Source: Burkholderiales bacterium
GTDB taxonomy: Bacteria; Pseudomonadota; Gammaproteobacteria; Burkholderiales; Burkholderiaceae_C
Length of the DNA stretch: 64,000 nucleotides
Direction: 5' to 3'
NCBI GenBank assembly: GCA_020354665.1
Contig: CP070653.1
Coordinates: 550,946-614,945 of the forward strand
This document shows positions 1 to 3,344 of this stretch, in pieces. The translations under genes were made by a program, and so were the position numbers. A model generated the notes under the pieces. The model searched no databases and had not been told where the DNA came from. It saw only the letters and a program-made list of their open reading frames with translations. Numbering within the stretch: position 1 is the stretch's first letter; every line of letters starts with the position of its first letter.

Positions 1-691
1 ACAGGATGTAGGCCAGCCCGATCAGCGGCGCGGCAAGCAGCAGGCCCGTGTTCTTCGCCACGCGGCCCACCGTGCTCAGCGCGCGGTTCTTGGCAGCCGC
101 CTTGGTTGCGGTCCACGCCAGCATGCCGAGCCCGACGAACGGAAGCGCGAGGATGTAGGCGAGGCCGACGAATGGCGCGGCGAAGAACAGCGCGACGTTC
201 TTCGCAGCGGTCATCACCGCCGACCCGGTGGTCGACTCCTCTGCGACCTCGGCGGCCGCTTCGGCCGCGACCTCGACCACCGCCTCGACCGGTAGCGCGA
301 CAGCTTCGGCGACTGGCGCCCTCGCGCGTGAGAAGACGCGCCGCGCACTCGATTCGATCAGCTCGGGCGACAGCGGCTTGTGAATGAACTCGACCACGCC
401 GGCCGCTTCGGCGCGTGCGTGGTTCTCGGCGGAGCCGTATCCAGTCACGATGACCACCGGTGTCCACGGCCGGCGCGCCTTCACCTTCTCGGCGACCTCC
501 AGACCGCTCATTCCGGGCATCTTGATGTCGGTATAGACAGCGTCGTATTCCTCCTTGGCGAGCCGCTCGAGCGCCGCTGCGCCGTTCTCGGCCGTTACCA
601 CGATGTACCCCTTTGCGGACAGCACGCGGTCGAAACTCTTTCCGACGACCGGATCGTCGTCCACGACCAGCACTTTGCGTAATGCGCTCAT
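1..691 (-). CDS. Response regulator receiver protein with C-terminal hydrophobic repeats (partial, runs off left edge)
   Basis: I translated this by hand from the ATG at 691. The reading frame stays open for 230 codons to the left edge, so the C-terminus is missing. Residues 5-115 form a CheY-type receiver with acidic residues at 11-13, phospho-acceptor Asp55 (YTDIKMPG), Thr83 and Lys105. After an Ala/Glu-rich linker (about 125-155) come hydrophobic segments such as FFAAPFVGLAYILALPFVGL. These are followed by a second, similar copy at 212-230, so there is no ordinary DNA-binding output domain in what can be seen. An AAGGAG sequence precedes the start. The gene lies 36 bp downstream of another receiver gene, probably in one operon. 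I infer a membrane-attached response regulator; its partner kinase is not in the window. Confidence 0.8.
   Translation of the reverse strand, partial: MSALRKVLVVDDDPVVGKSFDRVLSAKGYIVVTAENGAAALERLAKEEYDAVYTDIKMPGMSGLEVAEKVKARRPWTPVVIVTGYGSAENHARAEAAGVVEFIHKPLSPELIESSARRVFSRARAPVAEAVALPVEAVVEVAAEAAAEVAEESTTGSAVMTAAKNVALFFAAPFVGLAYILALPFVGLGMLAWTATKAAAKNRALSTVGRVAKNTGLLLAAPLIGLAYIL
3..213 (-). repeat. In-frame 147-bp (49-codon) direct repeat coding for hydrophobic segments
   Basis: The stretch at 150-213 resembles the stretch at 3-62, offset by 147 bp. Both code for an AKN...AAP(F/L)(V/I)GLAYIL segment in the same frame. The second copy is cut by the window edge, so the total copy number is unknown. 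Confidence 0.7.
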
Positions 692-727: not shown

Positions 728-1186
728 TCAGTGGGCAACCCCGGGTCGCCCCTCTACGGAAGCCGCCTCAGCGACACGTCCCTCGCGCTGCATCCCCAGC
801 GGGTGCAGCGCCCACTGTTTCTGCGTCACTGCATCGCTCGTGGCCTTGATCACCTCCACCGGGCCGACCGGCTTGGCGAGGTAGTTGTGCGCACCGAGCT
901 GCACCGCCTCTTTCGCGGTCTCAACGGAGGGATAGCCGGTGATCACCACCACTTCGGTATCCGGCCACTTTTCCTTGATCGCCTTGAGCACGTCCATGCC
1001 ACTCATTCCGGGCATGCGAAGGTCCAACAAGACGACGTCAAACGGCTGTTCTTCCATCGCGCGCAACGCCTCATCGCCGTTCCAGGCCGTTTCGACATTG
1101 CACTGAGCAGCCGTCAGCGACCGCAGGTAGCTCAACCGCACGATCTCGTTGTCATCGACCACGAGGACTCTTCGCTTTTCGGTCAT
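728..1186 (-). CDS. Single-domain CheY-like response regulator
   Basis: This is a 152-residue protein. A receiver domain fills about residues 5-120: Asp11/Asp12, phospho-acceptor Asp55 in LLDLRMPG, Thr83 (ITGY) and Lys105. A short tail with no recognisable output domain follows. I chose the ATG at 1186 because AAGGTGA sits just upstream and the receiver begins at once; a longer reading would run through the promoter. A canonical sigma-54 element lies about 45 bp upstream. The next gene, 36 bp downstream, is a second receiver protein with hydrophobic repeats, so the two probably form one phosphorelay output unit. No histidine kinase is adjacent within the window. Confidence 0.88.
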   Translation of the reverse strand: MTEKRRVLVVDDNEIVRLSYLRSLTAAQCNVETAWNGDEALRAMEEQPFDVVLLDLRMPGMSGMDVLKAIKEKWPDTEVVVITGYPSVETAKEAVQLGAHNYLAKPVGPVEVIKATSDAVTQKQWALHPLGMQREGRVAEAASVEGRPGVAH

Positions 1187-1230: not shown

Positions 1231-1247
1231 ACGCAAGCACCGTGCCA
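1231..1247 (-). promoter_or_regulatory. Sigma-54 (RpoN) -24/-12 promoter
   Basis: Read on the minus strand, the sequence is TGGCACGGTGCTTGCGT. This matches the RpoN consensus TGGCACG-N4-TTGC, with GG and GC exactly 10 bases apart. It would start transcription near 1220, about 35 nt before the ATG of the CheY-like gene. An enhancer-binding activator would be required; none is visible in the window. Confidence 0.85.
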
Positions 1248-1647: not shown

Positions 1648-1953
1648 TCATGCCGGGCGCATCGCGCCGCAGTTCCAGCACTGCTCGAACGGGCCGTCGA
1701 CCGACTCGCCGCATGCGCGACAAAGCCAGTGGTGCCACGGCAGGCGGCGCCACTCCTCGAGGAGCTTGCGCGCCGCATCGAGCTGCGCGTCGTCGAGCAC
1801 CCACACCTCGGGCAGGCTCTGGTCCGGCGGGATTTCGCCGGCGATGCTGCTCGCGTAAGGTCGCTGCACGGTCGCGTCGATGCCAGCCGCGCACAGCTGG
1901 TCGGACCACAGCGTGGCCAGCGCGAGGTTGGGGGCCTGCAGGACGCGCTTCAC
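1648..1953 (-). CDS. DUF2007-family protein with C-terminal zinc ribbon
   Basis: About 101 residues if started at the GTG at 1953, just after the stop of gor. An in-frame ATG at 2019 would instead overlap gor by about 43 bp. The first 65 residues show the DUF2007 pattern (leucine-rich start VLQAPNLALA, then LPEVWVLDD and an amphipathic helix). The C-terminus carries two Cys pairs, CRAC and CWNC, typical of a small zinc ribbon. The family is annotated as putative signal-transducing but no biochemical role is established. It is probably co-transcribed with gor. Confidence 0.7.
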   Translation of the reverse strand: MKRVLQAPNLALATLWSDQLCAAGIDATVQRPYASSIAGEIPPDQSLPEVWVLDDAQLDAARKLLEEWRRLPWHHWLCRACGESVDGPFEQCWNCGAMRPA

Positions 1954-1976
1954 CGTTGCTGCGGCCGGAGCGAACG

Positions 1977-3344
1977 CTACGCGTTGTGGCGATACGCCGG
2001 CGCGCGCATCGTCACCCACTCTTCGCCGGCGGTCGGATGCACCGGCAGCGTCGCGTCGAACTGTGCCTTCGTCGCGCCGGCCTGCAGCGCGACGCCGAGC
2101 AGCTGGGCCATCTCGCCGGCATCGGGCCCGAGCACGTGGCAGCCGAGCACGCGGTCCGTGTCGCGGTCGACCAGCAGCTTCATGAAGACCTTGTGGCCGT
2201 GGCCCGACAGGGTGGCTTTCATCGGCCGGAACTCGGTCCGGTACACGTCCAGGTGCGGGTGCTTCGCCAACGCCTGCGCCTCGGTCAGGCCGACCGTGCC
2301 GAGCTCGGGCGTCGAGACCACCGCGCTGGGCACCAGCGCGTGCTGCACCGGCGTCGGCCGGCGGCCGAACACCGTTTCGGCGTACGCGTGACCCTCGCGG
2401 ATCGCCGCGGGCGTCAGATTGACGCGGTTGGTGACGTCACCCACCGCATGGATGTGCGGCACGTTGGTCTGCGAGTACTCGTCGACTGTGATGGCGCCGT
2501 GCGCGTTGTGGCGGACCCCGGCCTCGGCCAACCCGAGGTCGACGATGTTGGGCATGCGGCCGATCGCGAACAGCACCTGGTCGGCACCGAGCGTGCGCTC
2601 GTCGGCGAGCGTGACCAGCCGTGCACCGCCTACCGCCTCGATGCTCTGCACGGTCTGGCCGGTGATCACCTCGATGCCGCCGGTCTGCATCTGAGCCTGC
2701 AGCCGCGCGCGCAGGTCGTCGTCGAAGCCGCGCAGCACCTGCTCGCCGCGATAGACGAGGCTCACCTGCGAGCCCAGGCCCTGCAACAGGCACGCGAACT
2801 CGACCGCGATGTAGCCACCGCCCTGGATCACGACGCGTTGCGGCAGCCCGGGCCATTCGAACAGGTCGTTCGAGTTGTGCGCCAGCTCGGCGCCATGGAT
2901 GCGCGGCCCCATCGCCGGAATCGCGCCCGTGGCGATCAGGATGTGCGCGGCGCGCACCGTCTCGCTGCTGCCGGCCAGGCGCAGCGTGTGCGCATCGACG
3001 AATCTCGCATGGTTGCGTAGCAGCGTCACGCCGGCCTTCGTGAGGTTGGCGGTGTAGATCTCCTCGAGTCGTGCCACTTCGCGGTCGCGGTTGGCCTTGA
3101 GCGTGCGCCAGTCGAAGCGGTGTTTGCCGGCCTGCCAGCCGAAACCTCGCGCTTCGTCGAACTCCTGCGCGAAGCGCGACGCGTAGACCATCAGCTTCTT
3201 GGGCACGCAGCCGCGGACCACGCAGGTGCCGCCGATGCGGTACGACTCGGCCAAAGCGACGCGCGCGCCGTACTGCGCAGCGATCCGCGCTGCGCGCACG
3301 CCGCCCGAACCGCCACCGATGACGAACAGATCGAATTCACGCAT
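1977..3344 (-). CDS. gor: Glutathione-disulfide reductase
   Basis: A 455-residue class I pyridine nucleotide-disulfide oxidoreductase that reduces oxidised glutathione with NADPH in the cytoplasm. Visible features are the N-terminal FAD-binding GGGSGG (about residues 10-15), the redox-active disulfide Cys41/Cys46 in GGTCVVRGCVPKK, a second dinucleotide-binding region with QGGGYIAVEFA, and the C-terminal catalytic HPTAGEE. Length is normal for Gor. The GCVPKK form separates it from lipoamide dehydrogenase, which has GCIPSK. The DUF2007 gene follows immediately. Confidence 0.93.
   Translation of the reverse strand: MREFDLFVIGGGSGGVRAARIAAQYGARVALAESYRIGGTCVVRGCVPKKLMVYASRFAQEFDEARGFGWQAGKHRFDWRTLKANRDREVARLEEIYTANLTKAGVTLLRNHARFVDAHTLRLAGSSETVRAAHILIATGAIPAMGPRIHGAELAHNSNDLFEWPGLPQRVVIQGGGYIAVEFACLLQGLGSQVSLVYRGEQVLRGFDDDLRARLQAQMQTGGIEVITGQTVQSIEAVGGARLVTLADERTLGADQVLFAIGRMPNIVDLGLAEAGVRHNAHGAITVDEYSQTNVPHIHAVGDVTNRVNLTPAAIREGHAYAETVFGRRPTPVQHALVPSAVVSTPELGTVGLTEAQALAKHPHLDVYRTEFRPMKATLSGHGHKVFMKLLVDRDTDRVLGCHVLGPDAGEMAQLLGVALQAGATKAQFDATLPVHPTAGEEWVTMRAPAYRHNA

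Follow-up and report, generated by a model that had tools for sequence, protein, structure and literature searches.

Most response regulators are soluble proteins, and most exert their effect on DNA or second messengers. The window analysed here, a stretch of 64,000 nucleotides from a Burkholderiales genome, opens with a gene whose product joins a receiver to repeated hydrophobic segments, raising the question of what a receiver could control if it has no output domain and is held at a membrane. A preliminary description, made from the letters of the window, had proposed that this protein acts at or within the membrane. We followed up this proposal in the window protein, in its relatives and in the operon that encodes it.

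Receiver and hydrophobic units of the window protein

The gene at the left edge of the window comprises the following features.

2 to 691, minus strand: gene of the receiver and hydrophobic unit protein; 230 residues visible, 3' end cut, aligned with 11 homologues
350 to 673, minus strand: receiver domain (PF00072), residues 7–114, with D11–D13, D55, T83 and K105
206 to 337, minus strand: linker rich in Ala, Val and Glu, residues 119–162; poorly conserved, in the model mostly of low confidence and lacking regular structure
83 to 205, minus strand: hydrophobic unit 1, residues 163–203, KNVALFFAAPFVGLAYILALPFVGLGMLAW...; uncharged stretch at residues 166–196 (window 104–196), model helix at residues 157–201
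2 to 58, minus strand: start of hydrophobic unit 2, residues 212–230, KNTGLLLAAPLIGLAYIL...; cut by the gap

Residues 7–114 matched PF00072 with an E-value of 1.9e-27 and 96.1 bits, far above the curated cut-off of 30.2, and the acidic pair D11–D13, the phospho-accepting D55, T83 and K105 are all kept, so that the receiver has the full set of phosphorylation residues as originally claimed. A Foldseek search with a homologous model matched CheY-like receivers, such as 3crn_B (E 8.6e-12). The AlphaFold predictions for a complete two-unit relative (mean pLDDT 79) and for the window protein (mean pLDDT 80) agree: the receiver is modelled with confidence, the linker with low confidence, and long helices make up the C-terminal part. 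Mean identity among the relatives is 69% in the receiver, 60% in the unit and 25% in the linker.

Within the window lie one full unit and roughly half of the next. The GLAYIL segment occurs at residues 176 and 225, a spacing of exactly 49 residues (147 nt), and the in-frame copies have 13 of 19 residues and 41 of 57 bases in common. None of 2000 DNA shuffles and none of 5000 protein shuffles reached the observed repeat score, which bears out the 49-residue repeat of the preliminary description. The repeat that it reported at the DNA level is also real (73% identity at a spacing of 147 nt), although the coordinates given, 3–62 and 150–213, were slightly too long and should read 3–58 and 150–205.

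The open reading frame at 2–691 runs into the window edge without a stop codon, in line with the earlier statement that the C-terminus lies outside the window. In the genome, 100 N stand directly to the left of window position 1; the truncation therefore goes beyond a mere window edge, and the end of the gene is absent from this locus because of the assembly gap.

Predicted membrane insertion of the unit

All units contain 19-residue segments well over the usual hydropathy threshold of 1.6, and the receiver contains none. The uncharged run spans about 31 residues per unit, with 19-residue Kyte-Doolittle maxima of about 2.0–2.7; the complete unit of the window protein has 31 uncharged residues and a 19-residue mean of 2.19. 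The insertion energy per unit is approximate and near +1; like the hydropathy values, it was obtained by plain summation. Insertion into the membrane is the natural reading of these properties, and the hydropathy of all units together with the helices in the AlphaFold models lends computational support to the suggested response regulator at or within the membrane, its location being a prediction. Lys or Arg residues flank each unit on both sides, and each unit has two invariant prolines 11 residues apart; the cationic flanks and the prolines are compatible with either a spanning or a re-entrant topology. The conservation moment of the unit at 100 degrees gave no significant helical face (p=0.72), so no specific intramembrane partner is indicated.

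Relatives of the window protein end after the units

A scan with the tail of the window protein recovered seven loci, and a search with a model of the unit then added more in the order and the family. The full-length alignment had 12 rows, namely the window protein, ten complete homologues (from L024, L025, L026, L028, L030, L050, which holds two, L051, L052 and L053) and a degenerate copy at L054. The complete homologues are 190–294 residues long, and each consists of a receiver, then one, two or three units, then a stop codon; L086 and L089 provide further examples, one truncated at its 5' end and one complete. No output domain was recognisable after the units in any complete homologue, so these proteins agree with the claim that the receiver lacks one; the last residues of the window protein itself lie outside the visible sequence. 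The phosphorylation residues are kept in all aligned homologues except L054, where the gene (L054:9059–10047) is a decaying copy with Glu at the phospho-site and altered neighbouring residues, and where the adjacent kinase is only an N-terminal fragment.

The domain search suggested for the tail returned no Pfam family above cut-off for the window protein or the tails of four relatives, with no match to OmpR, NarL, NtrC, GGDEF/EAL, HD-GYP or CheB. NCBIfam matches centred on the receiver half, with none for two stand-alone unit proteins tested, and the PDB yielded no convincing relative of the unit. More repeats and predicted helices had been named as supporting signs, and both appeared, as up to three units in the relatives and as helices in the AlphaFold models. 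The receiver and unit proteins thus form a small family built on an uncatalogued unit, as judged from sequence comparison. The unit also occurs in small proteins with two copies and nothing else recognisable.

L026:1652–2023: stand-alone two-unit protein
L027:129–524: stand-alone two-unit protein
L029:2956–3324: stand-alone two-unit protein
L055:9435–9800: stand-alone two-unit protein
L087:6229–6681: stand-alone two-unit protein
L089:13882–14265: stand-alone two-unit protein

The position of the gene at a contig end and its GC-rich sequence might suggest a chance or assembly artefact. However, the same architecture recurs in many independent assemblies, including that of Ramlibacter alkalitolerans KACC 19305 (L030), a named strain without a MAG label, and the homologues refute this explanation, to which we assign a negligible probability.

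The unit is rare. It was found in 7 of 399 sampled genomes of the order, one of them a weak match that was not counted, or about 2% of genomes, and in 5 of 301 genomes of the family sample, two of them weakly. Samples across the class and the phylum gave no strong unit match beyond Burkholderiales, and no plasmid-borne copies were found. Weak matches in G358, G1161 and G1076 were set aside; the match in G358 sits in a long open reading frame of another membrane-protein type.

A conserved operon with a predicted sigma-54 promoter

Upstream of the window gene lie two further features on the same strand.

728 to 1186, minus strand: CheY-like receiver-only protein, 152 aa, first gene of the operon (PF00072, E=3e-30)
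1233 to 1247, minus strand: predicted sigma-54 (-24/-12) promoter, TGGCACGGTGCTTGC, starting 61 bases before the start codon of the CheY-like gene

The promoter is the sole exact match to a sigma-54 site in the window, where 0.21 are expected by chance. Of 13 operon heads, 10 carry a site of the type TGGCA-N6-TTGC, an element form also given as TGGCAC-N5-TTGC close before the first gene, at -47 to -65 from that gene; the background count is 12 in 659,494 positions, the operon-head sites themselves being part of it. The operon is thus predicted to be sigma-54-dependent, and the NtrC-type regulator encoded beside the cytochrome genes likely controls it. The CheY-like homologues are conserved and carry a K-x-W-x-L motif C-terminal to the receiver. 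Window 1648–2019 (minus strand), located between the promoter of the operon and a gene for a pyridine nucleotide-disulphide oxidoreductase, encodes a DUF2007 'putative signal transducing protein'.

Six loci (L024, L025, L028, L030, L051 and L089) have the gene order CheY-like protein, receiver and unit protein, multiheme cytochrome c and b561-type cytochrome, with an opposing NtrC-type gene; a HAMP histidine kinase gene is also present where the examined stretch extends far enough. Large parts of the cluster are kept in the variants at L026, L050, L053, L054 and L086. Flanking genes of L024–L030 were identified by visual inspection and from the resemblance of their starts, and a part of them was scanned. 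Across the loci the cytochrome c has 7 or 9 CXXCH motifs (7–9 hemes). Genes for an MtrB/PioB porin, a multiheme cytochrome, Fe-S and NrfD proteins neighbour the cluster at L050, and multiheme cytochrome and Fe-S genes do so at L054. The product of L050:7007–8170, near the receiver and unit genes, combines a receiver with an N-terminal hydrophobic segment and a glycine cleavage H-like domain (PF01597). At L053 (genome G103) the protein stands beside the kinase and the NtrC-type gene, the examined stretch contains no cytochrome, and a search of the G103 genome gave no cytochrome c match at E below 1e-40. At that threshold, the cytochrome c was found in 5 of the 399 order genomes, and each of these belongs to the six genomes in which the unit match is convincing; a hand calculation puts this co-occurrence at about 1e-10 if the genomes are taken as independent, which they are not fully.

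The probable missing half of the operon in the window's genome

The genome of the window is a single 3.64-Mb scaffold with 100-N gaps, and genes closely related to those for the cytochrome c, the cytochrome b, the NtrC-type regulator and the kinase lie at 3.208–3.213 Mb. The cytochrome c encoded there has 9 CXXCH motifs, and the cytochrome b matches PF01292 (E=2.7e-26). The features that bear on the break are as follows.

L002:9847–9946: 100-N gap at the left edge of the window
L075:9668–9767: 100-N gap directly preceding the cytochrome cluster
L075:13452–15086: HAMP histidine kinase with CXXCH and CX4CH in its periplasmic domain

The far side of the second gap opens with LMKRTDE and a stop codon, about 130 bases before the cytochrome gene, a spacing similar to that in the relatives, whose proteins end in the comparable ALMKRA and ALMKKKD. 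Most likely, judging from these ends, the scaffold is mis-ordered and the contig that ends at window position 1 would continue at L075:9768 instead of running into the permease-like gene to its left. The cut in the window protein leaves room for an ordinary output domain in the missing C-terminus, with the hydrophobic repeats as an internal spacer. Such a domain is absent from every complete homologue, and the candidate end resembles theirs and stands close before the cytochrome gene, which makes this alternative very improbable.

The left neighbours on the scaffold were rejected as the true context, the contigs being parted by 100-N gaps and the operon remainder lying at 3.208 Mb. The nearest of them encodes a membrane protein that by eye looks like an ABC permease and has no Pfam match, and beyond it are HSP20/DnaJ and fumarate-reductase-like genes; L002:3330–5891 contains a DnaJ-type chaperone gene, two adjacent HSP20-family genes and a third gene of the array without a Pfam family. 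A stress-tolerance island, suggested by the nearby HSP20, DnaJ, LonB-like protease and disulphide reductase genes, was dropped as well, since the operons of the relatives lie among unrelated genes.

A putative heme-sensing kinase and the proposed role of the tethered receiver

In five kinases, CXXCH and CX4CH are invariant in the periplasmic domain. The sensor matched PF21563, a chemotaxis sensor family, with an E-value of 0.039, which is below the Pfam cut-off, and has no convincing relative in the PDB. Sensor domains with c-type heme have already been described in kinases (PMC12889525), and this kinase, with its two motifs, is a probable c-type heme redox sensor.

Taken together, we tentatively favour a model in which the window protein is a membrane-anchored receiver without output domain, tied to a quinone-cytochrome module of the CbcBA/CbcL kind and acting by phosphorylation-dependent membrane contacts. 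The receiver would be anchored at the inner membrane through its C-terminal helical hydrophobic units, of which there are one to three. The kinase, with its predicted periplasmic c-type hemes, would read the redox state of the periplasm and phosphorylate the NtrC-type regulator, which would switch on the operon. It may also phosphorylate the tethered receiver, which would be concentrated at the membrane beside the quinone-linked bc cytochrome and could adjust the activity or assembly of that cytochrome through phosphorylation-dependent contacts. A stronger version, which we regard as rather doubtful, has the inner-membrane receiver directly gating or assembling the quinone-linked multiheme bc cytochrome, such that the heme-reading kinase would control extracellular-type electron transfer at two levels, post-translationally and through sigma-54 transcription.

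The main alternative is a feedback sink, in which the tethered receiver, perhaps together with the CheY-like protein, only competes for phosphoryl groups at the kinase and so damps the NtrC-type regulator, without a target of its own. It would fit a protein made from a sigma-54 operon that this regulator likely controls, and the presence of three receivers alongside one kinase. The L053 protein, retained with kinase and NtrC-type gene and no cytochrome, points the same way; because of this locus, the cytochrome need not be the target. However, the unit is conserved nearly as well as the receiver, beyond the needs of a mere anchor, and cytochrome genes follow directly at most loci; we consider a sink unlikely, if the strongest competitor. 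It predicts a different outcome for a D55 mutant from that of the favoured membrane-contact model.

The stand-alone two-unit proteins bring up another alternative, that the units bind each other or these small proteins and so gather kinase, receivers and cytochromes in a membrane patch, with phosphorylation only tuning assembly. Such genes do exist and lie inside the cytochrome cluster at L026 and L089. However, those at L029, L055 and L087 lie outside it, and a search of the genome that holds the window gave no stand-alone unit protein, leaving a localisation or assembly factor a distinctly improbable reading. If the favoured membrane-contact model is right, this operon would be a concrete example of a two-component system acting directly on a respiratory enzyme, by way of a protein family that may serve as a switch for respiration at the membrane and not for genes; the unit would be an uncatalogued module of predicted membrane nature that is also found in small stand-alone proteins.

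Comparison with known systems

Single-domain response regulators of the CheY/Spo0F kind likewise have an intact receiver and no DNA-binding or enzymatic output, and must act via protein contacts. The window protein differs from them in its linker and its one to three C-terminal hydrophobic helical units, and a true CheY-like protein is encoded separately just upstream.

Geobacter cbcBA depends on the sigma-54 regulator BccR. The downstream pair of a 7–9-heme cytochrome c and a b-type PF01292 cytochrome resembles the inner-membrane bc quinone oxidoreductases CbcL/MtoC/MtrH and CbcBA of metal-respiring bacteria (PMC6295460, PMC12307469, PMC10553843), and two of our loci adjoin MtrB/PioB, Fe-S or NrfD genes. 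Whereas CbcL is one protein, the cytochromes here are two separate genes paired with receiver genes; the likeness is one of composition. The kinase resembles the sCache_heme/DUF3365 sensors such as GSU0582 (PMC12889525) in being a HAMP kinase with CXXCH in its periplasmic sensor, but it has two motifs, CXXCH and CX4CH, and its only Pfam match is the sub-threshold one to PF21563.

Among open-licence papers, a search for membrane-anchored bacterial response regulators returned only a note on an archaeal one with MetOD3, in the methanogen Methanoregula (PMC5847659). That protein likewise joins a receiver to a lineage-specific membrane anchor; its arrangement is MetOD3-REC-MetOD2 with an N-terminal anchor of about 180 aa, whereas the proteins described here have C-terminal units of about 42 aa and come from Burkholderiales. 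A membrane-anchored response regulator has thus already been noted in a methanogen, and single-domain receivers are common; the novelty here lies in the uncatalogued unit, in its being encoded together with an electron-transfer module, and in how that operon is regulated.
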